DNA of 64,000 nucleotides, taken from the NCBI RefSeq assembly GCF_009208775.1, contig NZ_WFLM01000001.1, positions 124,001-188,000 of the forward strand, in the 5' to 3' direction. Within the stretch, counting starts at the first letter, position 1, and each line of letters opens with the position of its first letter. This stretch comes from Silvanigrella paludirubra. GTDB taxonomy: Bacteria > Bdellovibrionota_B > Oligoflexia > Silvanigrellales > Silvanigrellaceae. Shown piece after piece: positions 2,878-52,058 of this stretch. A program made the position numbers and the translations under genes. The notes beneath the pieces are model-generated. The model was not told the DNA's origin and made no database searches. It was given only the letters and a program-made list of their open reading frames with translations.

Positions 2878-5013
2878 TTAATCTGCTAATTGTACATAAG
2901 TTACTTTAGCTTTTGGGTTATTTTGAATAATGTCATTGATAGATATTAGATAGTATCCTGGAAATTGATTGTTATTTGTTTTTCTGAATAATGCAATTTT
3001 ATCATTTAATTTAATAGTAAAGTTTATTGCATTTACTTCATTTGGAGGAAGCATATTAAAAAGTTCATTTAATTTACCGTTACCAATAATGTTATATTTA
3101 TCAGTGTCTAAAATATCATAATTACCATCTTTTTTTAAGAAGTAGAGGTTTTCTTTTTCATTTGTATTGATAACAAAAGCGGCGAAGATATTTGCAACAT
3201 AAAATGGATCTAATGTTTTTTCTATTCCATAGTTTGCATTATGGCCACTATAAGTTCCCATTGTTAATGAGTTAGCTTTTAAAATATTACCTTTTTCATC
3301 TACAAAACGAATATCCCATATTCCTTTCCAAATATTTCCAATTTGTGGAATGCTATTGGCAATCTCACCAAAGGCAACTATTTTTTTATGTGTATTATAA
3401 GCATCATTAGGATTGCTGCTGATCCAGTCACGAACTCCCCAATATTCATAAACAGATCCTGCTCCAATGTAGCTACCTGTTTTGGAATCTATTTGACGAA
3501 GGCTTCCTTGGGAATCGTTTAAAATGACAGTAGTTGCATTCATTTTGCTGTATGCATTTACAAAGCTTGAATTTGATTTGTTTGCGTCAACTAATAAATT
3601 ACATAAAGTAACTTTTGTATTGTTGATTACATCATTTGCAATTACTTTTAGATCGGAACAATTTTCGTTTAATACATGTGAAGCTTCTGAAATTGGTAAA
3701 TTAACAATAGTAATGCTAGAACCGAATAAATCACCTTCTTTTAATCCTAAGCTATCACTTGTATTTATTTTTGATTTTCCTGCAATGAGTTCAACGCATC
3801 CACTTCCATCAATGTTGCATTTAAAAACAGCGCCTGTTCTTTTATCTGCATCTGTTTTTCTTCCCATTGCTCCAATATAAATGGAATCACTTGTTGCGAT
3901 AACGCTGGATCCAAAATTGTCGTTCACAGACAAATCTAACTGTTTTCTACTTTCTTGGTTTTGGCCACCTAAAAAAGCGATACAATTTCCAACATTAAAA
4001 TCACATTTAAAAATACTACCCGTGTCATATAAGTTGGATTGGCTTGTTGATCCACTATCTCTCCCAATAGCTCCCACAAATAGATTAACTCCGTTACCAG
4101 ATAAGCTTGTTCCAAAATTATCATTTGTGATTAAATTTAAATTGTCTGTTTTATAAGCAACACAATTATCTCCAGATAAATCACATTTAAAAACAGCACC
4201 ATTTCCTCCATTTTTATCTTTAGCACCAATAAAAATATTAGAATTTGTAACGAATATACTTGTTCCTAAGTGATCTAGTCTATTTAATTGTGATTTAATT
4301 TTGCTTGTTTGATTTTTGCCCGCAATAAACTCGGATGCGTTGATGCCATTTAAGTCGTATTGAAATACTGCGCCAATATCATCTTTATAGTTTGCTGACA
4401 TTGTTGGTACAGTATCGCCACTGTCTCTTCCGGGAGCGCCAATATAAATTTTATCTTTTGTTGCGAATAAACTGCTACCAAAATTATCATTTGTAATTAA
4501 TTTCATGGTATCTGTATCAAATTGAATACAATTTTTTCCTGTTAAGTCGCATTTATAAACTGTTCCGTTAGGAGAAGTTGAATCGGGCTTGTAATATTGA
4601 TTTTGTCCACTTTTTCCTTCTGAGCCAATATAAATAAAATTTTGGTTACCTGAAATACTTGAGCCAAAATTATCGCCTTTAGTTAACTTAATGCTTTTTG
4701 CTGTTGGCTCAGATGAAATAAAAGGGATGTTGCCTCCAATAAACTCCGCGCATTGAGTACCATCCAAATTACATTTAAATACAGCACCTTTGCCGCCACG
4801 ACCTTTTGAACCTATTAATAAATAATTTTGAGTATTTGGTGGTGGGTTTTCATTAATTACATTTGCAGAGGTATTTTGCGAGTTTCCACCACCACTGCCA
4901 CTACTTCCACCACCTTGTGAGCATGAGGAAATAGTAAAAAGTGTTGTTAAAAAAACAGCACTTATAAAAAACTTATATTTTATGGTTTGTTGTGTTTTGA
5001 TTGGAAAATGCAT
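2878..5013 (-). CDS. Lipoprotein with FG-GAP-like beta-propeller repeats, copy 1
   Basis: The product is 711 residues. A hydrophobic signal ends in a lipobox with lipidated Cys31 (TISSCS), followed by a Gly/Ser linker, so it should be anchored to a membrane as a lipoprotein. Residues about 65-440 hold at least six repeats of roughly 60 residues. Each has an FG-GAP/integrin-alpha-like piece (DNFGSS, then IYIGA.GR), then a VFKCDL.G..C segment. The Cys-X6-Cys pair is present in five repeats and lost as a pair in one (FQYDLNGINA). The C-terminal 270 residues are a different, unrecognised domain. A paralogue lies at 49839-52058. The ribosome-binding site is strong (GGAGG just upstream of ATG). Function is unknown; surface or periplasmic binding is likely. 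Confidence 0.75.
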   Translation of the reverse strand: MHFPIKTQQTIKYKFFISAVFLTTLFTISSCSQGGGSSGSGGGNSQNTSANVINENPPPNTQNYLLIGSKGRGGKGAVFKCNLDGTQCAEFIGGNIPFISSEPTAKSIKLTKGDNFGSSISGNQNFIYIGSEGKSGQNQYYKPDSTSPNGTVYKCDLTGKNCIQFDTDTMKLITNDNFGSSLFATKDKIYIGAPGRDSGDTVPTMSANYKDDIGAVFQYDLNGINASEFIAGKNQTSKIKSQLNRLDHLGTSIFVTNSNIFIGAKDKNGGNGAVFKCDLSGDNCVAYKTDNLNLITNDNFGTSLSGNGVNLFVGAIGRDSGSTSQSNLYDTGSIFKCDFNVGNCIAFLGGQNQESRKQLDLSVNDNFGSSVIATSDSIYIGAMGRKTDADKRTGAVFKCNIDGSGCVELIAGKSKINTSDSLGLKEGDLFGSSITIVNLPISEASHVLNENCSDLKVIANDVINNTKVTLCNLLVDANKSNSSFVNAYSKMNATTVILNDSQGSLRQIDSKTGSYIGAGSVYEYWGVRDWISSNPNDAYNTHKKIVAFGEIANSIPQIGNIWKGIWDIRFVDEKGNILKANSLTMGTYSGHNANYGIEKTLDPFYVANIFAAFVINTNEKENLYFLKKDGNYDILDTDKYNIIGNGKLNELFNMLPPNEVNAINFTIKLNDKIALFRKTNNNQFPGYYLISINDIIQNNPKAKVTYVQLAD

Positions 5014-32598: not shown

Positions 32599-33087
32599 GT
32601 GAAAAATATTTCATTTTTAGTAAGTATTATTGTTTTTGTATTTTATATTTCAAATGCAAATGCTGTTATTGGTTCTGCTGGTTGCGGCTTGGGTTCGGTC
32701 GTTTTTAGAGGATCGCAGTGGTGGAAGCAAATCTTTGCACTAACAACAAATCAAGCTACAGGATCTCAAGCTTTTGGTATTACATCAGGAACATCGGGGT
32801 GTCCGCCAGCTATATTTGGTGTAGTTGAAAATCAAGAAGAATATATTGAATTTAATCTATCTTCTATTCAAAAAGAAGCAGCTCAAGGAACGGGTGAATT
32901 ATTATTTGGGCTTGCTTATAGGCTGGGTTGTGATCAAATGTATTTTCTAGATTTTGGTACTTATACTCAAAAAAATTATATTGAAATTTTTACTTCACAA
33001 AATGCAAAAAATGTTTTGTTTAATATAAAAAATTTAATTCAAAAAAATGAAATTTTAGTGCATAACTGTAAATATATTAATATCTAG
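32599..33087 (+). CDS. DUF3015 protein, tandem copy 1
   Basis: The product is 162 residues starting with GTG. A signal peptide (SFLVSIIVFVFYISNANA) is followed by the DUF3015 core: IGSAGCGLGSVVF, then FGITSGTSGCPP, then QKEAAQGTGELLFGLA. DUF3015 proteins are small exported proteins of unknown function with conserved cysteines (here in AGCGLG, SGCPP, LGCDQ and the final HNCKY). It is the first of three tandem homologues followed by a DUF4105 gene. An upstream TTGACA (32503) sits in a block resembling the promoter of copy 2. Confidence 0.85.
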   Translation: MKNISFLVSIIVFVFYISNANAVIGSAGCGLGSVVFRGSQWWKQIFALTTNQATGSQAFGITSGTSGCPPAIFGVVENQEEYIEFNLSSIQKEAAQGTGELLFGLAYRLGCDQMYFLDFGTYTQKNYIEIFTSQNAKNVLFNIKNLIQKNEILVHNCKYINI

Positions 33088-33095
33088 TTGTTTTT

Positions 33096-33122
33096 TTGAC
33101 ATAATTATTTTCTTTTTATACT
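33096..33122 (+). promoter_or_regulatory. Promoter of DUF3015 copy 2
   Basis: TTGACA (33096-33101) and TATACT (33117-33122) are separated by 15 bases, slightly short of ideal. The surrounding block (TTTTTGACAT...TTTTCTTTTT) is partly repeated upstream of copy 1 at about 32500-32525, suggesting that promoter and gene were duplicated together. Confidence 0.5.
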
Positions 33123-33185
33123 CTTTAATTACAATCTATATTGAGTTCTCCTATTTTAAATTTAATAAATTTTGGGAAGGTTAAA

Positions 33186-33683
33186 ATGAAAAATTTTATG
33201 AAAAATATTCTTTTTGTCCTTATTGTAGGTGCTTTTTGTTTACTTGCTTCGCGTGCTCATGCTGTAGGCTCTGCTGGTTGCGGGCTTGGTTCTGTTGTTT
33301 TTAAAGGAAATGAGTGGTGGAAGCAGATTTTAGCTATGACGACAAATCATTTAACAAGTTCACAATTTATTGGGATTACAACAGGGACTTCAAATTGTGC
33401 TCCTGGATTATTTGGGATTGTTCAAAAACAAGAAGACTATGTTGTCGCAAATTTTTCAACTCTGCAAAGAGAAGCTGCACAAGGTAGTGGCGAAAGTTTA
33501 AATGGTCTTGCTTCTACTCTTGGTTGTGAAAATTCAAGTTTCCCAAGTTTTGGGGCTTATACTCAAGAAAAATACTATGAGATATTTTCTGCTCAAGATG
33601 CAAAAGAAGTTTTACAAAATATAAAGGTAGAAGTTGAGAAAAATCAGAATCTTTCTAGAGAATGTAAATTCATTCAAATTTGA
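33186..33683 (+). CDS. DUF3015 protein, tandem copy 2
   Basis: The protein has 165 residues from ATG 33186, supported by GGGAAGG a few bases upstream; a longer frame starts at a TTG. A signal peptide ends at SRAHAVG. The core is GSAGCGLGSVVFKGNEWWKQI, IGITTGTSNCAPG and LQREAAQGSGESLNGLASTLGC. It keeps the GLA..LGC and FGAYTQE segments of the family. It is closest to copy 1, sharing the WWKQI segment that copy 3 lacks. Function is unknown. Confidence 0.85.
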   Translation: MKNFMKNILFVLIVGAFCLLASRAHAVGSAGCGLGSVVFKGNEWWKQILAMTTNHLTSSQFIGITTGTSNCAPGLFGIVQKQEDYVVANFSTLQREAAQGSGESLNGLASTLGCENSSFPSFGAYTQEKYYEIFSAQDAKEVLQNIKVEVEKNQNLSRECKFIQI

Positions 33684-33871
33684 ATTTTGTTAATTTAGCA
33701 ATACCTCCTAAAAAATATTTATTTCACACATAATTTAATATTTTATTGATAAAAATCTTAAAAAATAAAAAAATATCCTATTCGCTATTGAATGCTTCAA
33801 TTTTATCTGTATTATTTTTTGCAGTCAAAGACGGAAGTCGTTCTTTACTATTGCTTAAATGGAGTTTTTCA

Positions 33872-34381
33872 ATGAAATTTTTAGTTTCAAAAAAATATTT
33901 AGGATTAGTTTTAGCATCTTTATTAAGTACTGCTACTTTTAGTGCTTCAGCTGATGTTGGAATTGCTGGCTGTGGACTGGGTTCAGTTGTTTTTAAAGAT
34001 AATGGCAGAGGCAGCCAAATTTTAGCTTCTACAACGAATGCAACATTATGGAGCCAAACATTTGGAATAACTTCTGGTACTTCTAATTGTGGATCTGGAG
34101 TTGCAAAACAAGCCAATAATACTATGAAACTAGATTATGTTAATGCTAACCTTTCCACACTTCAAAGAGAAATTGCTCAAGGTAACGGTTCAACTGTGAA
34201 TGGTCTAGCAGCTGTTGTGGGTTGTCCATCAAGTTCTTATGCTGAGTTTGGTGCTTATACACAAGACCATTATAGCTCTATTTTTACATCTAATAATGCA
34301 GAAGAAATTGTAAATAATATAAATCAAGAAATGTTAAAAAATTCTGAACTCTCTAAATCTTGTAATCTTGGTAATAGTTAG
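33872..34381 (+). CDS. DUF3015 protein, tandem copy 3
   Basis: The protein has 169 residues from ATG 33872, supported by GGAG 9 bases upstream; the longer frame adds 42 residues ahead of a second, real signal peptide. The signal peptide ends at FSASA. The core is IAGCGLGSVVF, FGITSGTSNCGSG, LQREIAQGNGSTVNGLAAVVGC and FGAYTQDHY. Here the WW segment is replaced by NGRGSQIL. It ends two bases before the DUF4105 start, so the two genes are likely translationally coupled. Confidence 0.85.
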   Translation: MKFLVSKKYLGLVLASLLSTATFSASADVGIAGCGLGSVVFKDNGRGSQILASTTNATLWSQTFGITSGTSNCGSGVAKQANNTMKLDYVNANLSTLQREIAQGNGSTVNGLAAVVGCPSSSYAEFGAYTQDHYSSIFTSNNAEEIVNNINQEMLKNSELSKSCNLGNS

Positions 34382-42759: not shown

Positions 42760-42771
42760 CCTTTCTTAACA

Positions 42772-42806
42772 AAACACCTCTTAATCTAAAAGAGGTGTTT
42801 TTTTTT
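42772..42806 (+). terminator. Intrinsic terminator after the large lipoprotein gene
   Basis: AAACACCTCTT (42772-42782) pairs with AAGAGGTGTTT (42790-42800), followed by a run of T to 42806. The hairpin starts 12 bases after the stop codon. Confidence 0.92.
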
Positions 42807-43322: not shown

Positions 43323-44585
43323 TCAACTCGGAATCCCCAAAATTTCATAATTTTCTTCTAAAAATTTCTTTAATAGGTCTGAAATCATGCAGCAAGAAAT
43401 AGAAAAAAATTCTTTGGCATTAAACTTCTCATTTTTTTCTTTTTCTAAAAGTTCTAATTCTAAATTGTGTGTTAATGTAGCAATATTGGATAAAGCAAAT
43501 TTAGAAAAATAATTTTTGTATTCAAATAGTATATTTTTTCCAATAGTAATATCATCGCAATCTAATAAAGTAACATTTTTAACTGCAATTTCTTTTAATA
43601 TTTGATCAAACTCAGTACGTTTTTTGATAATTTCAATAATTGTTAAATTTTTTGTATGATACTCCTCTAAAAATTTTTGTTTTTTAATATGCTCCGTAAT
43701 ATCACTGCAGCAAATTATAATTTTGTGAGGTTTTTTATCAGAATCTAAAATAGGAGTATAACTCATTTTTATAGTCTTATTTTTTACTTCAATTGTTCCG
43801 GGAAGCATATTAAAAATAGATTCCAAGTTAAAAATATTTTCAAAATATTGTTTAATGGATAAAATAAAAATATCTTTTTTACTTACTTCAAGCTCATCAA
43901 AAACTTCTATGATATTTCTACCCGAGATATCATTATTAAAAATATGCAAACAAGATTTAGAAACAACATCACTTGTCATTAAGTCTTTATTAATAATAAA
44001 GTAACAATCTTGCATGTTGTCAAGAATTTCTTTCATTTTTGTTTTTTCATCAGACAATTTTTTCTCTATAAAAGTATAATAAGTATTTACCGTAAAGTAA
44101 ATTTCAATAAATAATAAATCACTTGTAATCGACTGAGCTTCAAATAATTCGATGACATCCGTAAATTTGTTTTGCCATAATTTATTTAAAATTGAATTTA
44201 AATTACCAAGAGAAGCTAAATAAGCATCATTCGGAATTGATCTTATATAATGCATATAACCTATTTTAATTTTTTCTTTGTAATACTCAATATCAAAGGG
44301 GCCTGAAAAAATATATTCAAAGTATTTTTGATTTACTTTCATAAGACGCTCTATTTCAGCGTGCCCTTTAAAATATTTTTTGATTTTGTCATTATTTAAA
44401 TTATATTCATAAAATTCTTTTATGATATAATCAATATTTTCTTTAATTATAGGAGCTAATTTTTTAGCTTTATTTTTTTTAATATCGTCAAACTTTAAAG
44501 CGAATTCAAGATCTTCAATTTTATTGTTTAAAAAGTAGTCTTTTATAAATAGATTAAAACCTTCTATATCTAGCATAGTAATCAT
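43323..44585 (-). CDS. Globin-coupled PAS sensor with a pseudo-phosphotransfer C-terminus
   Basis: The product is 420 residues. Residues about 15-175 fit a protoglobin/globin-coupled-sensor heme domain: AKKLAPIIKENIDYIIKEFY, FEYIFSG, then KIKIGYMHYIRSIPNDAYL, with His112 as candidate heme-proximal ligand. A coiled linker leads to a PAS domain (about 183-297, EILDNMQDCYFIINKDL to ICCSDITEHIK). The last 110 residues resemble a CheA P1/Hpt helix pair: ILFEYK.....ALSNIATLTHNLELELLEKE lines up without gaps with the CheA encoded at 46657, but Phe354 stands where CheA has its phospho-His. It is divergent from the chemosensory operon. An oxygen, CO or NO sensor feeding that pathway is inferred. Confidence 0.72.
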   Translation of the reverse strand: MITMLDIEGFNLFIKDYFLNNKIEDLEFALKFDDIKKNKAKKLAPIIKENIDYIIKEFYEYNLNNDKIKKYFKGHAEIERLMKVNQKYFEYIFSGPFDIEYYKEKIKIGYMHYIRSIPNDAYLASLGNLNSILNKLWQNKFTDVIELFEAQSITSDLLFIEIYFTVNTYYTFIEKKLSDEKTKMKEILDNMQDCYFIINKDLMTSDVVSKSCLHIFNNDISGRNIIEVFDELEVSKKDIFILSIKQYFENIFNLESIFNMLPGTIEVKNKTIKMSYTPILDSDKKPHKIIICCSDITEHIKKQKFLEEYHTKNLTIIEIIKKRTEFDQILKEIAVKNVTLLDCDDITIGKNILFEYKNYFSKFALSNIATLTHNLELELLEKEKNEKFNAKEFFSISCCMISDLLKKFLEENYEILGIPS

Positions 44586-44597
44586 TCTTTCTTAAGA

Positions 44598-44633
44598 GAT
44601 ATCATGTTTAAAGATAATTCTAATGATATCATT
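44598..44633. promoter_or_regulatory. Inverted repeat in the divergent chemosensory promoter region
   Basis: GATATCAT (44598-44605) is complementary to ATGATATC (44623-44630); the right arm sits in a perfect 12-base palindrome AATGATATCATT (44622-44633). It is just upstream of the globin-sensor start. It may be an operator or a leader hairpin. Confidence 0.45.
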
Positions 44634-44763
44634 TTTTAATATTGCTATTGAATAGAAATTTATTTGACATGTCTTCATAATAATTTTAAAAATAAAGCAT
44701 TATTAGAGTGTTGCATTCGAGGGGAATTACTTTTACTCTGCTTAAATTTTACCTAGTTGTTCT

Positions 44764-44791
44764 TTGACATACCAAAAGCACGTCATTTAAT
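44764..44791 (+). promoter_or_regulatory. Promoter of the chemosensory operon
   Basis: TTGACA (44764-44769) and TTTAAT (44786-44791) are spaced by 16 bases, with transcription expected near 44798, about 50 bases before the first gene. A second TTGACA exactly 100 bases upstream (44664) has no convincing -10. Confidence 0.6.
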
Positions 44792-44847
44792 AAAAAAACT
44801 ATTTTTACGACATACTAAGAGATAAATTTTTTGAAATAAAGGTTTCA

Positions 44848-45492
44848 ATGGCAAACTTTGAAAGCAACTTAAAATCATTATTTAATATTTTGGCAGACTT
44901 ACGGCAGGAGTTTAATTATTTAAATGTCGAAGCTGAAAATTTAAATGAAATCGCAATGAATGCGGCTGTGACAGCGGGACAAACAGGAAAGTCGATTCGT
45001 GTCTATACTGAAATTTCAAATCATATCGCTATTTCTTCAAAAAAAATGAAAAGTTTTATTCTTAAAAATAGAAATGAAGTCAATTCTATTTTAAATTTAA
45101 CTTTAAAAATATTGTCAAATGATATGATGAATAATAAATATCATTTAGTGAATAGTAGTAAGTCATTAAAAAACAATGTTCTATTTATTGATGAAAAGAT
45201 AAAAATATTAAGAAAATTAGAATATAAGACAATTAAAGAATTGATAACTCATGTTTATCAAACAAAATCATTCTTAAAATCAATTTTACAACTTCAATAT
45301 AAATTATTTGGTGTTTATAACTGTTTACTTATTGAAGCAATACAACTAGAAGGTACTTCTTATTCAGCTATAAAAACCTTGAGTGAGAGTTTATATCATT
45401 CATTTGAAATAACAATTTCATCTATAGATAAATTGTTTTTAATTTTAAAAAAAATATCACGTTTAGTTAAAGTAATTAGTTTAAATTATTAA
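44848..45492 (+). CDS. Helical protein with degenerate chemoreceptor-tip motif
   Basis: The product is 214 residues, all predicted helical, with no membrane segment. Residues 33-60 (LNEIAMNAAVTAGQTGKSIRVYTEIS) echo the chemoreceptor hairpin tip L-N-A-x-I-E-A-x-R-A-G-x-x-G-x-G-F-A-V-V-A-x-E-V. Compared with the intact tip encoded at 46252, three residues (E-A-V) are missing and the Arg is Thr, precisely where receptors touch CheA and CheW. The rest, to residue 214, is Lys/Leu/Ile-rich helix without recognisable domain. It is the first gene of the chemosensory operon, 10 bases before the ODP-like gene. It may be a structural partner or a degenerate receptor; function unknown. Confidence 0.6.
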   Translation: MANFESNLKSLFNILADLRQEFNYLNVEAENLNEIAMNAAVTAGQTGKSIRVYTEISNHIAISSKKMKSFILKNRNEVNSILNLTLKILSNDMMNNKYHLVNSSKSLKNNVLFIDEKIKILRKLEYKTIKELITHVYQTKSFLKSILQLQYKLFGVYNCLLIEAIQLEGTSYSAIKTLSESLYHSFEITISSIDKLFLILKKISRLVKVISLNY

Positions 45493-45502
45493 ATGAGGAA
45501 TT

Positions 45503-46237
45503 ATGCTTACAAAAATTCTTTATGAAGATAATCACTGCAAATGGGTTATGTTTGGACGTGACCCACAAAAGAAAAACAGTGTTATTGATACCAATGAGTA
45601 CGCTATTATTGTCAATAATGAAGCTATATTATTAGATCCAGGTGGGATTGAAATTTTTCCAGCAGTATTAACGGCAATCTCAGAAATTTTAGATGTTAAA
45701 AATATCAAAGCCTATTTATGTAGTCACCAAGATCCTGATATTATGTCTTCACTTCAATTATGGCTAGGCTTAACACCCGATGCAAAAGTTTATTTATCCT
45801 GGCTTTGGGCTGGATTTATTGCACATTTTGGTGGTGAATATGTAAAGAACTTTGTTTCGTTACCAGATGAAGGGGGGCCATTAGAATTTAATCAAAAAAG
45901 ATTTGAATTTGTGCCTGCCCACTATTGCCATTCTTCTGGTAATTTTCATTTTTTTGATCCGGAATCAAAAATATTTTTTTCTGGTGATATGGGAGCAGCT
46001 TTAGTTCCTGTGGATTATCCAACCATAGTAGAAGATTTTAAAGAACACATAAAGTATATGGAAAAATTTCATCAAAGATGGATGCCTTCAAATGAAGCCA
46101 AAAATAGATGGGTCAGTCGTGTTCGAAAATTAAATCCAAAAATGCTTTGTCCACAACATGGCGCTGTCTTTACGGGAGAAAATGTTCATAATTTTTTAAA
46201 TTGGATTGAAGAACTAGAAGTAGGAAAAGCAAAATAA
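45503..46237 (+). CDS. ODP-like oxygen-binding diiron metallo-beta-lactamase-fold protein
   Basis: The product is 244 residues and lacks the flavodoxin domain of flavodiiron proteins. Diiron ligands are visible in order: His75, Asp77, Asp79 ([10 protein letters not shown]), His143 ([14 protein letters not shown]), Asp162 (FSGDMGAA) and His219 (CPQHGAVF). This set and the domain size fit ODP, the oxygen-binding diiron protein that works with chemotaxis genes in Treponema denticola, where it senses iron and oxygen. Asp77 takes the place of the Glu usual in flavodiiron enzymes. It lies between two chemoreceptor-tip-like genes, 14 bases before the second and upstream of cheA. Signalling rather than catalysis is inferred from context. 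Confidence 0.82.
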
Positions 46238-46251
46238 ATGAGGAAATATTT

Positions 46252-46626
46252 ATGAGTGGCGCAGCTTTATTAGATGAAAATAAATTAGATACCATTTTAA
46301 CTAATTTTATGGCATCTGAAAAAAATGTAGAAGAGCTTTCTGTAGCTTTAAATAAAATTGAAAAAATGGTTTTTACGGTTCGTGATATTTCAACAAAAAC
46401 CGATCTTTTATCACTAAATGCTTCAATAGAAGCCGTACGTGCGGGGCAGTCTGGAAAAGGTTTTGCTGTTGTGGCAGATGAGGTCGCTCGGCTTGCAGAA
46501 AAGACCCAAGATTCTATTTCTGAGATAGAGACTGCTGTTGATTCCTTTAAAGATGGTTTTGAAAATTTAAGAGAGTTTTTAATTAAAACAAAAGAAATGA
46601 TTAAAATGTCAATGGAAAAAAAGTAA
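46252..46626 (+). CDS. Stand-alone chemoreceptor signalling tip (mini-MCP)
   Basis: The product is only 124 residues, with no sensor domain, membrane helix or HAMP. Residues 43-85 are an intact chemoreceptor hairpin tip: [21 protein letters not shown] followed by [18 protein letters not shown], with Glu60 and Arg63 at the contact site for CheA and CheW. The tip lies at the exact middle (about residue 62), leaving arms of some 60 residues each. That covers the interaction region but hardly any adaptation helices. It should bind CheA/CheW in the cytoplasm and needs a separate sensor, for which the preceding ODP-like protein is the obvious candidate. Confidence 0.85.
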
Positions 46627-46656
46627 TAAAAACGCTTTCCTATTTATGGAAATAAT

Positions 46657-48402
46657 ATGGAATTTAATGATGAACTTATACAAATATTTAACGAAGAAGT
46701 AACCGACCTAATTGAACGGAGTCGCAACTCATTAGATAATTTTTTATTATCAGAAAATAAAATTGAAAAATTTAAAGATGTTTTAAGAGTCATACATACT
46801 ATTAAGGGAAATGCAGGAACAATAGGCTATAATGATATTCGAAAATATTCTCATGACTTAGAAACCTCGCTTTTAGAATTTAAAAATAATGAAAATAAAG
46901 TAGACAAAAGCGCTGTTGATAAAATTATTAAGTTTTTTGATTATGTTGAAAGTATAATTTCAGGTGAAGTTGTTAGCCCTTACCAAGAACCCGATCCCTC
47001 TCAAGAAAAAAAAGATTTTGAAATATTTGAAAAAGTAGAAGCTAGTGTTGAAAAAAAAGAAATGGAAATTTTTTCTAAAGAGGAAGAAAAACCAAAATCT
47101 TTAGCCCTAAATAAAAATAAAGAAACAAATAATTTAGAAAAAATGGAAATTAAAGAAAATAAAAATTCAAAAAATATGAATGATTATATTCGAGTTCCAA
47201 CAGATAGGCTTCAAAAAAACTTTGATGTTATTTCGGAAATATTTTTAATTCGAAATCAAATGCGTTATTTGGTTGAAAAATACGCTGCAGAAGGTGTTTA
47301 TTCAGACCTTTTTTTCCAAGATTGGGAAATTCTCGATAATTCGCTCCGAAAAAGTATTGGCGAGTTAGAAGGAATTTCTATGTCGATGCGTATGACTCCT
47401 ATTAAAAGTTTATTACGCAGAATGGAAAAGACAATACGCAGTTATTTAGAAACTTCTTCTGATAAAGATATTCGTGTTGAAATTGAAGGAGAAGATGTCG
47501 AAATTGATAAAAAAATAATTGATTCTCTTGCGGAACCTCTTATTCATTTAACTCGCAATGCCATGGATCATGGAATTGAAACAAAACAAGAAAGAATAAA
47601 CTTAGGCAAAGATCCTCAGGCTGTTATTAAGTTTGAAATTCAAATAGTAGCAAATGAAGCTATTTTATGTGTCAGTGATGATGGTAGAGGAATAGATGAA
47701 AATAATGTATTAAAATCTGCAATAAAAAAAGGTTTAAATGTAAGTAATGTGCAGACAAAAGAAGAAATAATCAATCTTATTTTCTTACCTGGTTTTAGTA
47801 CTGTTGAAAAAGTGAGTGATGTTTCTGGTCGTGGAATTGGGATGGATGCAGTAAAAACTTATGTGGAAAGTATTGGTGGAAATTTAGGGATAAAAACAGA
47901 AATAGGCAAGGGAACCGAATTTAATCTCAAACTTCCTTTAGGTATGTCTGTTGTTCCTGTTATCATTGCAAAAGCAAATAATATTAAATTTGCTATATTA
48001 AATAGTGAAGTTTTAGAATTAAAAAAAATAAATCCAAAAGAAGTTATTCAAAATGGGAATGAGAGATATTATAAACGTGGTAATGAATTTATAAAATGCA
48101 TTAATATTGAAGATGGTTTGTTTTCGCATCTAAAAAAAGAATCTGATTTTTATGATCAAAAAGAGAAATTATCTATTTGTATTATTGGCCAAACAGGAAA
48201 ATTAATTGCTGTTCAAATTGGAGAATTTTTAGAAAATGCAGAAATTGTTGTAAAAGAATATCCATCTAGTGCTCCCAAATTTAATTATGTTTCAGGAATT
48301 TCTATTTTAGCAACAGGAGAACCAACATTTTTAATTTCACTAAACAAATACTGTGAAAAAAATACGAATATGATTGTAAATAAAAAAAGTGGTGAATTAT
48401 GA
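46657..48402 (+). CDS. cheA: Chemotaxis histidine kinase CheA (no P2 domain)
   Basis: The product is 581 residues. P1/Hpt domain (1-105) has LRVIHTIKGNAGTIGY with phospho-His47. Residues 106-175 are a Glu/Lys-rich linker (EKKEMEIFSKEEEKPK) where a P2 response-regulator-docking domain would normally lie; none is visible. P3 dimerisation starts at YIRVPTDRLQKNFDVISEIF (about 178-260). P4 ATPase has the N box HLTRNAMDHGIE, G1 VSDDGRGID and G2 GRGIGMDAVKTYV. P5, the CheW-like regulatory domain, runs from about 430 to the end. Its stop overlaps the cheW start by 4 bases. It would phosphorylate CheV and/or a CheY encoded elsewhere. Confidence 0.93.
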   Translation: MEFNDELIQIFNEEVTDLIERSRNSLDNFLLSENKIEKFKDVLRVIHTIKGNAGTIGYNDIRKYSHDLETSLLEFKNNENKVDKSAVDKIIKFFDYVESIISGEVVSPYQEPDPSQEKKDFEIFEKVEASVEKKEMEIFSKEEEKPKSLALNKNKETNNLEKMEIKENKNSKNMNDYIRVPTDRLQKNFDVISEIFLIRNQMRYLVEKYAAEGVYSDLFFQDWEILDNSLRKSIGELEGISMSMRMTPIKSLLRRMEKTIRSYLETSSDKDIRVEIEGEDVEIDKKIIDSLAEPLIHLTRNAMDHGIETKQERINLGKDPQAVIKFEIQIVANEAILCVSDDGRGIDENNVLKSAIKKGLNVSNVQTKEEIINLIFLPGFSTVEKVSDVSGRGIGMDAVKTYVESIGGNLGIKTEIGKGTEFNLKLPLGMSVVPVIIAKANNIKFAILNSEVLELKKINPKEVIQNGNERYYKRGNEFIKCINIEDGLFSHLKKESDFYDQKEKLSICIIGQTGKLIAVQIGEFLENAEIVVKEYPSSAPKFNYVSGISILATGEPTFLISLNKYCEKNTNMIVNKKSGEL

Positions 48403-48851
48403 TAGACATCAATCAAATTAAAAAAAATCAATTAATAATAGATAAAAAAAACTTAGAAGATATCGATCAATTTACACTTATTCGTTTTCATGTTGGTGAT
48501 AAAAATTATGCAGTTGATATTAAAAATGTCCACGAAATATTAGAGTCTATTGATTATACTCCTTATCCAGAAAAATTAAATAATCATATTGGAATTTTAA
48601 ATGTGAGAGGGGAAATTATTCCTTTAATTCAATTTGATAAAAATTTTTCATTTAACAAAAAAGATAAATTTAAAATTATTATTTTGGAATTTGAAACAGG
48701 TAAATTAAATGCAATTAAAACAGATAAAGTTCATAAATGTACTCAAAAATCTAAATTTTTAATTGCAGGTCAAACAATTAATTTAAACGGTATTCCATCA
48801 TTTTATATTGACGAAAGCAATTTTGAAAACTTATTTAAGGAAACTGCATGA
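48399..48851 (+). CDS. cheW: Chemotaxis coupling protein CheW
   Basis: The product is 150 residues forming a single CheW domain: FTLIRFHVGDKNYAVDIKNVHEIL at the start, then YTPYPEKLNNHIGILNVRGEIIPLIQFDKNF, the conserved 'p....gi.nlRG.iipvidl' motif. Then comes IIILEFETGKLNAIKTDKVHKC and a weaker last strand pair. The leading 25 residues are a Lys/Asn-rich extension. It links receptor tips to CheA. ATGA overlaps on both sides with cheA and cheV make the three genes a coupled unit. Confidence 0.93.
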   Translation: MIDINQIKKNQLIIDKKNLEDIDQFTLIRFHVGDKNYAVDIKNVHEILESIDYTPYPEKLNNHIGILNVRGEIIPLIQFDKNFSFNKKDKFKIIILEFETGKLNAIKTDKVHKCTQKSKFLIAGQTINLNGIPSFYIDESNFENLFKETA

Positions 48852-49777
48852 TAGAGAATCAGCAAATCATTAACAATGCAAATGAGAGAAGTATTATTAT
48901 TCTCCCTTTTTCTTTAGTGAATAAAGAAATAGAGCTTCATATGTGTTTAAATGTTCAAAAAATTGCTGCTGTTATTGAAGTCGGTGAATATTCTGTTCTT
49001 CCAGGGGTTATGCCTCCCTTTGTTTATATGATAGACATGCAGGGCATTCCTGTCCCCGTTCTTGAATTAAGTAAACTGGTAGAAAATAATGATTTAACTC
49101 AATCTCAAGTAAAATCCGTAGATAAAAAAAAGCAGACAAAAAAAAGAATCATAGTTTGTCATGTTCTTTCCATTTATATAGGTATTATAGTAGATTTCAC
49201 TAAGAAAATAAAAACAGTACAAAATGCAAGTTTACAGCCTATTCCCGAAATCTGGGAACAAAGTAACAGTTTTTTTGTAAGTGGTTTATTGAATGAAAAA
49301 GACTATTATCGTTATGTATTTGATATAGAGAGATACATTTCAAATATTGGATTAAATATTGGAAGTGTTTCTAGTGAATTTAAAGAAAATAATCACATTT
49401 TAAAGGGAAAAAAAGGCCTTGTTGTTGAAGATTCTCGTGTCTATCAGCTCTTAGCCAAAAAGTTTTTTGAAAAATATGAAATGGCATTAGATTTGGCTGC
49501 AGATGGAAAAATAGGATTAGATTTATTACTTAAAAATGCAAATAAATATGACTTTGTGATAACGGACATTGAAATGCCTAATATGAATGGAATAGAAATG
49601 ATAAAACAGTTTAAATCTATTCATAAAAATTCAAGTTTGCCTATATTATTTCACTCCTCTATTTCTAACCCAGAATTTAGCAAAGATTTAATGGGTGAAG
49701 GCTATGGAGATATGATAACAAAGTTTAATGAAGAAACTTTATATCAATCTATTATAAATTTATTTCATAAAAATTAA
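48848..49777 (+). CDS. cheV: CheV (CheW domain fused to response-regulator receiver)
   Basis: The product is 309 residues. Residues about 15-170 are a CheW domain (ELHMCLNVQKIAAVIEVGEYSVLPGVMPPFVYMIDMQGIPVPVLEL in pattern), and 187-309 are a receiver domain: GLVVEDSRVYQLLAKKFFE with the acidic pocket, phospho-acceptor Asp240 in VITDIEMPNMNGIEM, hydroxyl residue in LFHSS and Lys292 in MITKF. CheV proteins couple receptors to CheA and adjust the complex through phosphorylation. As no free CheY or CheB/CheR is in this operon, this is the only receiver encoded here and may provide adaptation. Confidence 0.92.
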   Translation: MIENQQIINNANERSIIILPFSLVNKEIELHMCLNVQKIAAVIEVGEYSVLPGVMPPFVYMIDMQGIPVPVLELSKLVENNDLTQSQVKSVDKKKQTKKRIIVCHVLSIYIGIIVDFTKKIKTVQNASLQPIPEIWEQSNSFFVSGLLNEKDYYRYVFDIERYISNIGLNIGSVSSEFKENNHILKGKKGLVVEDSRVYQLLAKKFFEKYEMALDLAADGKIGLDLLLKNANKYDFVITDIEMPNMNGIEMIKQFKSIHKNSSLPILFHSSISNPEFSKDLMGEGYGDMITKFNEETLYQSIINLFHKN

Positions 49778-49782
49778 TATAT

Positions 49783-49814
49783 AAAAAACCTCAGAGCTTG
49801 TTAAAACTCTGAGG
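49783..49814 (-). terminator. Intrinsic terminator between cheV and the second propeller lipoprotein
   Basis: CCTCAGAG (49789-49796) pairs with CTCTGAGG (49807-49814) across a 10-base loop. The A run at 49783-49788 becomes a T run on the minus strand, so it best serves the lipoprotein gene. It may also stop the chemosensory transcript, though less efficiently. Confidence 0.82.
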
Positions 49815-49838
49815 CCAATTTCTGATTATTAAAAAGGT

Positions 49839-52058
49839 TTATGGTTTTTTTGGAATTGTAATATCTAACATGATTACAATATTTTGAAATATATTTGGAT
49901 CATGCCAGTCGATTGCTTGTAAGTGAAAACCACCCACATATTTTCCAGGGGCTAAAGAAGCATTTAAAGCAGGATCAAATTTAACTGTAAATCCTTTAGA
50001 GAAATTACCACTTGCTTCAGGACCACAAGCAATTCCAACAGCAGTTGTTAATGGCCAATTTGTGTATGTAGGACAATTTCCAGGAATACTGTTACCTACT
50101 AAAGTAATTTGATTTGTGCTTGAGTCAGTTAAGTTATGAATATTTATATTAAATGTTGGAGGGTTTTTTCCTGTATCGCCACCCCAAGTAATGGTATGAG
50201 CTTTGTCTTCTTTTGAGTTAGGTAATACATAACCAATTGAATGGCTTGCTGGTACTTTATCTTTATAGTAATTTGTTTTGTCTAATACAGATGGTGCATT
50301 TGTTTTTCCATCGTAAATTAAATCAAAGCTTACAAAATTAAAGTTTGAAGCAGTAAATCTTTTTTCTAAGTCTGTTACTCCAATAACAAATGTTCCTGGA
50401 TTATTAGAAGTAATATTTAAATAATATTTTGCCCCAGAAGTTGAAGTATATAATACCGCTTTATCTAATGCAGATGTTTTTTTATCATTATCCACAGAAA
50501 ATTGAAGCGCTGTGCTTGGGTCTGTAGGCTTTAATTCTTCCTTATCTAATTTTAAGCTTGTAATGGATATTTTACAGTTTTTGTCTTTTGCTAATTTTAA
50601 AATTTTTGAATCTGGATTCAATTCTTGGTTAGTTACTTCAGAGGAATCGCAAGCAGTAGCTATTTGAGCACTGAACACAGGTGTAACATTGCTATTAAAT
50701 AGGCTATAAGAAGATTTTGCTATTGTTTTATAAATATCTCTTAAAATAAACCCAGTTTCTGTTTTTGGTAAAGTAACAATAGTAATGCTAGAACCAAATA
50801 AATCACCTTCTTTTAAGCTCAGAGTATTTGATGAATTCAAGTTTATAGATTTGCCACCAATGAGCTCATTGCAATTTGTTCCATCAATTTTACATTTAAA
50901 AACAGAACCAGTTCTTTTGCCAGAAACATCTTTTCTATTCATCGCGCCAATGTAAATGCTATCACCAATTACGGCAATACTAGATCCAAAATTGTCATTG
51001 ACAGCAAGTCCAAGTGCTTTTCGACTTGTTTGGTTTTGGCCACCAAGAAGTTCTAGACAGTTTTTACCATTTAAATCGCATTGAAATACAGATCCTGTAT
51101 CGTATAAATCAGGAACATTTGTTTGACCACTATCTCTACCAATGCCACCGATAAAAATATTGTTTTCATTCCCTGACAAACTCACACCAAAATTATCATT
51201 TGTAATTAATTTTAAAGGCGCTGTATCAAACTGAATACAATTTTGGCCTGATAAATCACATTTGAAAACAGAGCCATTAAAATTATTTTTATCTTTTGCA
51301 CCAATATAAATATTAGAGTTTGATATATATATTGCTGTACCTAAATGATCATTTACTTTTAAATCTTTTTTAATCGTACTATTTGCATTTTTACCTGCAA
51401 TAAATTCAGTACAATTTGCACCTTCACTGTCGCATTTAAAAACAGCACCAAAATCATATAAATTTGTTTGTGATGGAGTACCGCCGTCTCTACCAATGGC
51501 ACCAGTATAAATCGCGTCTTTTGTTGCAAATAAACTTGTACCAAAGTTATCATTTGTAATTAATTTTAAGGAATCAGTTGCAATAATTGTGCAGTTTTTA
51601 CCATTTAAATCGCATTTATAAATAGCGCCATTCGGATTTTTTGCTGCTGGTTTGTTGTACTGATCAAATCCATTTTTATAATTAGATCCAATAAAAATAT
51701 ATTTATCATTTGCTGAAATACTTGAACCAAAGGAATCGTCATTTTGTAACTTTAATTCAGGAGAGCTAGGTAGACCTATTTTTCCACCTAAAAACTCAAC
51801 ACAATCTGTACCATCTAGACTGCATTTAAAGACAGATCCCGTCTCTGATCTTCCTTTAGCACCAATAAGCAAATAATTTTGCATATTTGATGCTGGATTT
51901 TCATTTACAACATTGGCTGAGGCATTTTGAGAATCGCTACCACCACCACTACCTCCTCCTTTAGAGCAAGAAGAGAGTAGAAAAAGAGTCAATAAAAACG
52001 ATAATGTTTTTATTGATAAAGACCTTTTACTTTGAGATTGAAAAGGATAGTTCTTCAT
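49839..52058 (-). CDS. Lipoprotein with FG-GAP-like beta-propeller repeats, copy 2
   Basis: The product is 739 residues, a paralogue of the protein at 2878-5013. The signal ends in LLSSCSKGGG, with Cys31 lipidated, and the linker NASANVVNENPASNMQNYLLIGAKGR is nearly shared. Six propeller repeats to about residue 440 each have DNFG(S/T)S, IYIGA.GR and a Cys-X6-Cys segment (FKCSLDGTDC, YKCDLNGKNC, FKCDSEGANC and so on), all pairs intact. After a common LKEGDLFGSSITIV join, the last 300 residues differ from copy 1 and look like Ig-type beta domains ending KYVGGFHLQAIDWHDP. Function unknown; exported, possibly adhesive. Confidence 0.75.
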   Translation of the reverse strand: MKNYPFQSQSKRSLSIKTLSFLLTLFLLSSCSKGGGSGGGSDSQNASANVVNENPASNMQNYLLIGAKGRSETGSVFKCSLDGTDCVEFLGGKIGLPSSPELKLQNDDSFGSSISANDKYIFIGSNYKNGFDQYNKPAAKNPNGAIYKCDLNGKNCTIIATDSLKLITNDNFGTSLFATKDAIYTGAIGRDGGTPSQTNLYDFGAVFKCDSEGANCTEFIAGKNANSTIKKDLKVNDHLGTAIYISNSNIYIGAKDKNNFNGSVFKCDLSGQNCIQFDTAPLKLITNDNFGVSLSGNENNIFIGGIGRDSGQTNVPDLYDTGSVFQCDLNGKNCLELLGGQNQTSRKALGLAVNDNFGSSIAVIGDSIYIGAMNRKDVSGKRTGSVFKCKIDGTNCNELIGGKSINLNSSNTLSLKEGDLFGSSITIVTLPKTETGFILRDIYKTIAKSSYSLFNSNVTPVFSAQIATACDSSEVTNQELNPDSKILKLAKDKNCKISITSLKLDKEELKPTDPSTALQFSVDNDKKTSALDKAVLYTSTSGAKYYLNITSNNPGTFVIGVTDLEKRFTASNFNFVSFDLIYDGKTNAPSVLDKTNYYKDKVPASHSIGYVLPNSKEDKAHTITWGGDTGKNPPTFNINIHNLTDSSTNQITLVGNSIPGNCPTYTNWPLTTAVGIACGPEASGNFSKGFTVKFDPALNASLAPGKYVGGFHLQAIDWHDPNIFQNIVIMLDITIPKKP

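Follow-up and report, generated by a model that had tools for sequence, protein, structure and literature searches.

A conserved six-gene operon of Silvanigrella unites an ODP gene, two small receptor-like genes and a private cheA, cheW and cheV

In Treponema denticola, the diiron protein ODP (TDE2498) acts as an oxygen sensor in chemotaxis. It is coupled to the receptor TDE2496, which lacks both a membrane part and a sensing part and can modulate CheA (PMC7666581). Some ODP genes share an operon with MCP genes, for which two arrangements are known, and others are accompanied by signalling genes of other kinds (PMC7319448); these operon classes are given here as later papers present them, and not as in the original ODP paper (10.1073/pnas.1904234116). 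Soluble receptors that carry two hairpins in one chain are also known. Natural single-chain MCP signalling-domain proteins are mentioned, with their role described as unknown, in a passage of PMC4692393 that cites Berleman and Bauer (2005) and Wuichet and Zhulin (2010), and engineered Tsr~Tsr single-chain fusions work (PMC4692393). Receptor dimers are chemically symmetric, yet within a signalling complex their subunits differ in job, and single-chain receptors were engineered in order to separate these jobs (PMC4692393).

We analysed a 64,000-nucleotide stretch (the window) of the 3.9-Mb genome of Silvanigrella paludirubra, which belongs to a group that also contains Spirobacillus cienkowskii. 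As in T. denticola, a diiron-type ODP is genetically coupled here to a membrane-less and sensor-less receptor. Unlike T. denticola, which has one CheA, this locus has two receptor-like ODP neighbours, denoted tipA and tipB, and a private CheA, CheW and CheV. The original prediction, made from the DNA letters, had viewed the locus as a receptor divided into separate sensor and tip proteins around ODP. The dedicated soluble module stands, but the separation of sensor and receptor is the arrangement already described in T. denticola (PMC7666581) and is not new here. The locus joins a sensor of a known type to two receptor pieces of unusually small size, and the anatomy of these pieces looks like the new element.

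The ODP operon and its inheritance

The six genes of the operon lie head to tail at 44848-49777 on the plus strand, with intergenic gaps of 10-30 bp or 4-bp overlaps, and a globin gene diverges from them. The features, in positions of the window, are:

42771-42801: terminator-like hairpin
43323-44585, minus strand: globin sensor, 420 aa (Pfam Protoglobin, E=3e-19), divergent from the operon
44848-45492, plus strand: tipA, 214 aa, a predicted pair of short MCP-tip hairpins in tandem (hairpin 1 at about 44851-45156, hairpin 2 at about 45160-45483)
45503-46237, plus strand: ODP, 244 aa (Pfam ODP PF19583, E=6e-74, 248 bits against a cut-off of 27)
46252-46626, plus strand: tipB, 124 aa (MCPsignal PF00015, E=3e-24, 86 bits against a cut-off of 34.6)
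46657-48402, plus strand: CheA, with Hpt and HATPase (Pfam and NCBIfam matches)
48399-48851, plus strand: CheW, 150 aa (PF01584, E=1e-13)
48848-49777, plus strand: CheV, a CheW domain and a receiver (PF01584 and PF00072)
49787-49816, minus strand: terminator-like hairpin 3' of cheV, a 13-pair stem followed by a T-run, convergent with the next gene

All open reading frame positions given in the original prediction were borne out. It had also reported no membrane receptor, CheR, CheB or CheY, and indeed no membrane receptor, CheR, CheB or stand-alone CheY is encoded within the operon, whose sole receiver domain is that of CheV. A search of the region for Rfam families found none.

The ODP aligns end to end with the solved ODPs 6qrq and 6qnm, at 42-43% identity. 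Its putative metal-site residues H75, D77, D79, H143, D162 and H219 are invariant with both structures, H143 having been picked as a ligand by alignment with flavodiiron proteins; the predicted ODP-type diiron protein with all ligand residues thus keeps every putative ligand position. Judged by its sequence, this protein is a true member of the ODP family, and we infer that the window's copy may sense iron and oxygen.

A search for the same gene order in related genomes, which had been suggested as a check, found all six genes in identical order in 5 of the 5 genus genomes with a full ODP, and again in a genome from another family of the class (G025) and in an Oligoflexia MAG (L034). The S. 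cienkowskii record (L024) has the same operon. Such recurrence of a six-gene order is far beyond chance. Across the order, ODP and tipB occur together or not at all: of 15 genomes, five have both and ten have neither, where the count of ODP presence ignores weak sub-cut-off or distant ODP-like matches.

One of the operon-less relatives, the complete genome G013, has the flanks in the same order (a CMD gene, the globin gene and thiF) with the operon missing. The loss was nearly clean: thiF and the globin gene are now separated by a 3' stub of cheV, its last ~65 bp, together with the upstream/promoter flank (L118:7923-8288, compared with L021:5781-10992). Because the empty site retains this stub, the operon was deleted as a block, and a recent insertion, which we had considered, is ruled out.

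The operon ODPs are monophyletic (support 0.91). Compared with the operon CheAs of G025 and L034, the window's CheA shows 38-39% identity along the entire protein; with paralogues of the same genome, not all of which were seen whole, identity reaches 35% at most, over partial lengths. The CheVs follow the same pattern, matching each other better than their own-genome paralogues. In L034 a further ODP gene follows cheV, and a hemerythrin gene lies directly 5' of tipA. These comparisons support the view that the six genes form one genetic unit, a dedicated soluble module of ODP, mini-receptor, CheA, CheW and CheV, whose gene content, conservation, shared inheritance and loss can be read directly from the genomes.

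For a wider view we took the nearest 79 of 395 ODP loci, a sample whose distribution figures are biased towards close ODPs. These loci belong to Gammaproteobacteria, Alphaproteobacteria, Betaproteobacteria, Kapabacteria/Ignavibacteria, Nitrospira and SAR324. A hemerythrin gene adjoins ODP in L034 (2502-2903), and 5 of 73 scanned ODP neighbours are hemerythrin genes as well; one such gene lies at L047:8810-9256. ODP thus repeatedly has an oxygen carrier beside it, independently of the globin seen in the window.

Two small receptor-like proteins

Within its 124 aa, tipB covers positions 23-120 of the 172 positions of the MCP signalling profile (Pfam), and it matches MCP structures in the PDB with E down to 3e-16. 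In other lineages its length is 101-142 aa. The tip, a segment of 42 residues, is nearly invariant across three lineages, with N56, E60 and R63 fully so. Methylation helices, a HAMP domain, a membrane anchor and a sensor domain were all absent when the 124-aa protein was searched; the lack of room for methylation helices agrees with the absence of CheR and CheB. On these matches tipB amounts to a receptor hairpin and nothing more, its canonical tip complete and its arms very short.

The window's tipA gave no MCP model in Pfam and no significant PDB match in a single-sequence search, and a small five-sequence profile of it reached only P 6e-4. Its kinship emerges from its family. A protein of ~200-320 aa lies directly 5' of ODP in nearly all of the nearest 79 of 395 loci, and a profile of such ODP-upstream proteins, made with no member of the genus, shows full-length similarity to the tipA of the window (E 5e-9) and also matches tipB (E 7e-14), both values being measured in a set of nine proteins only. 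Searched against the PDB, a 69-member profile of the tipA family matches MCP structures; for one structure, the N- and C-terminal halves of the profile both align to the same tip. Half 1 of tipA also aligns with half 2 over 75 columns (P 7e-7), and the halves match tipB with P 8e-10 (half 1) and E 5e-11 (half 2). An MCP-tip profile built only from ordinary receptors and tipB, and then run on the halves of the family, scored a match in the first half of 65 members and in the second half of 31, out of 69, whereas it matched none of 690 shuffles and 5 of the 69 sequences when reversed; the second half of the window's tipA, taken alone, had no significant match to it.

The AF2 model of tipA (mean pLDDT 93, pTM 0.86) has four helices, at residues 2-45, 47-103, 105-165 and 170-212. 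In an antiparallel bundle these would place both tips at the same end. Family-level matches and modelled topology agree in presenting tipA as two MCP hairpins in one chain, although at ~100 residues per hairpin the family does not hold two complete MCP signalling domains. In the model the protein looks like a receptor pseudo-dimer folded from a single chain. Foldseek, which we also tried for the identity of tipA, returned designed or generic helical bundles as best matches and no receptor; it is uninformative here because it compares single chains, and receptors are dimers of hairpins.

The tips of the two hairpins appear to have decayed in complementary ways. Hairpin 1 has Asn38 in 69 of 69 sequences and Arg or Lys at position 45 in 61 of 69, and Glu is not among the eight commonest residues at position 42 in these sequences. 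Hairpin 2 has Glu163 in 68 of 69, Arg at position 166 in only 6 of 69, and has mostly lost the Asn. The lineage of the window has lost the hairpin-1 Arg too, carrying Gln45 instead. We take these Asn, Arg and Glu positions to be equivalent to N381, R388 and E385 of E. coli Tsr.

The original prediction had called tipA a tip-like helical protein. Kinship with MCP tips does hold through the family, but not through any MCP match of the protein on its own, and the description understates a two-hairpin single chain that adjoins ODP in many phyla, which the prediction had missed. Like the natural single-chain MCPs and Tsr~Tsr, tipA is soluble with two receptor hairpins per chain; it differs from the single-chain MCPs in having only ~210 aa, in its complementarily degenerate tips and in being tied to ODP. 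Thermotoga Tm14 (PDB 3g67) is likewise cytoplasmic, has an MCP tip and is of similar length (213 aa), but it aligns with a single tip in its middle, while tipA carries a pair of tips, near residues 45 and 166. The tipA family thus appears to be a short, asymmetric kind of single-chain receptor with a definite neighbour, and we found no description of it in the literature consulted, of which the original ODP paper is not a part.

A possible route from ODP to CheA

In an alignment of six operon CheAs, the kinase shows P1 (His47), P3, P4 and a divergent P5; a P2 domain was not recognised by Pfam, by NCBIfam or in this alignment. CheW is kept in all seven operons, and the acceptor Asp of the CheV receiver is conserved across three lineages (ITDIEMP).

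We propose, with a probability of about 0.6, that ODP together with tipA modulates a soluble core of tipB, CheW and CheA, and that CheV is the phospho-acceptor. The diiron site of ODP would bind iron and oxygen, and ODP would report its state through tipA, which, having two short tip hairpins in one chain, would imitate one receptor dimer. TipB would be the minimal receptor, its intact tip docking CheW and CheA. Since the arms of tipA are short like those of tipB, tipA could stand in for one dimer beside tipB dimers, and in doing so would shift the activity of CheA with oxygen or iron. CheA would then phosphorylate the receiver of CheV, and probably also CheYs encoded elsewhere, so as to set flagellar bias, with methylation adaptation absent from the module. 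For all of this we infer physical contacts, mixed assemblies and a flagellar output, and CheA and CheW could equally serve the 31 other receptors of the genome.

A more far-reaching version, which we regard as tentative and somewhat doubtful, is that asymmetric single-chain pseudo-dimers are partners of ODP across several phyla. They would slot into receptor trimers as a pre-formed dimer, with the trimer-facing and outward-facing hairpins fixed by sequence; combined here with an adaptation-free mini-receptor, they would make a very small soluble core that controls CheA. TipA is a natural protein whose hairpins have already diverged, and its small size should suit purification and crystallisation. 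Its neighbour is a known sensor and its operon here supplies a private kinase, which makes the job of each subunit directly testable. The proposal would also give a partner and a function to soluble single-chain receptor proteins whose stated role is unknown, and it suggests an oxygen input to CheA that needs neither membrane nor methylation.

It was originally proposed that tipB binds ODP directly. TipB would then be the sole receptor and tipA a decaying or regulatory relic, which would fit the complete set of canonical tip residues in tipB, its position directly 3' of ODP and the missing hairpin-1 Arg of tipA in the window's lineage; one published type of ODP operon also has the adjoining MCP gene in the other order (PMC7319448). 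We consider this unlikely, as tipA is retained in all seven operons and has long invariant stretches within the genus, and most other lineages have tipA beside ODP and no tipB there (in the nearest 79 of 395 loci).

The flagellum is probably the target of the module. S. cienkowskii is reported to possess full sets of flagellar and of chemotaxis genes, along with two oxidases that differ in oxygen affinity (PMC12321486). In genome G014 the operon is preceded by flgM, flgN, flgK and flgL, with a gene for an NADPH-dependent FMN reductase (L020:8725-9348) between flgL and the tipA-ODP operon, and in the gammaproteobacterial locus L060 a tipA-ODP pair ends a cheA-MCP-MCP-cheW-cheB run. This nearness to late flagellar genes and to a cheW-cheB cluster, and the nature of CheV as a chemotaxis coupling protein, speak against an alternative-function system that controls something other than flagellar direction, such as gene expression or surface behaviour, with CheV as phosphate sink or output. 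We hold such a system to be rather improbable, even though the operon has no CheY, CheR or CheB and about six further CheW-domain gene clusters in the genome may own flagellar control. FliG, present in 15 of 15 genomes of the order, also fits a flagellar output, which is no more than probable since relatives that have no operon keep flagellar genes too.

The neighbouring globin gene and other genes of the window

The globin protein consists of a globin domain, a degenerate PAS-like middle and a C-terminal helical bundle that matches no known family. The best Foldseek match of the globin domain is the HemAT sensor domain (TM 0.83), and the proximal His112 and distal Tyr59 are invariant in 5 orthologues, which makes binding of heme and oxygen plausible. 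It shares its Protoglobin domain, proximal His and distal Tyr with HemAT and other globin-coupled sensors, but unlike HemAT it has no C-terminal MCP domain; Pfam searches matched no MCP, kinase or receiver domain in it. The designation as a globin-coupled PAS protein is sound for the protoglobin domain and doubtful for the PAS, whose best Pfam E is 0.013, below cut-off, and whose region is modelled with pLDDT of ~35-55. The C-terminal bundle is predicted confidently by AF2. We considered it as an Hpt, in view of an HxxKG register that fits by eye, but rejected this at a profile P of 0.27; an HxxKN-like motif is present in most orthologues, and the window's copy has Phe in place of the His.

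The globin gene is linked to the operon in only 3 of the 5 operon-bearing genus genomes, and in Spirobacillus it lies away from the operon. An orthologue is unlinked in G009, is kept at the same place in the operon-less G013, and was not found in the G008 assembly, which has the operon. The idea of an obligate component was rejected on the strength of these genomes, and the gene often adjoins the module but does not belong to it. The predicted second oxygen input, with the globin feeding the same CheA, is therefore very improbable: its adjacency in three genus genomes, its place 3' of cheV on the same strand in G014, its conserved heme-pocket residues and the hemerythrins beside ODP elsewhere, L034 included, are outweighed by its persistence without the operon, its unlinked or missing copies, its lack of signalling domains and the poor Hpt likeness.

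Elsewhere in the window, 49839-52058 and 2878-5013 encode a pair of paralogous, lipoprotein-like proteins (739 and 711 aa). The former has FG-GAP repeats (Pfam), and the latter has the same opening and repeat motif. Three small secreted paralogues with the common motif AGCGLGSVVF lie in a row at 32599-34381.
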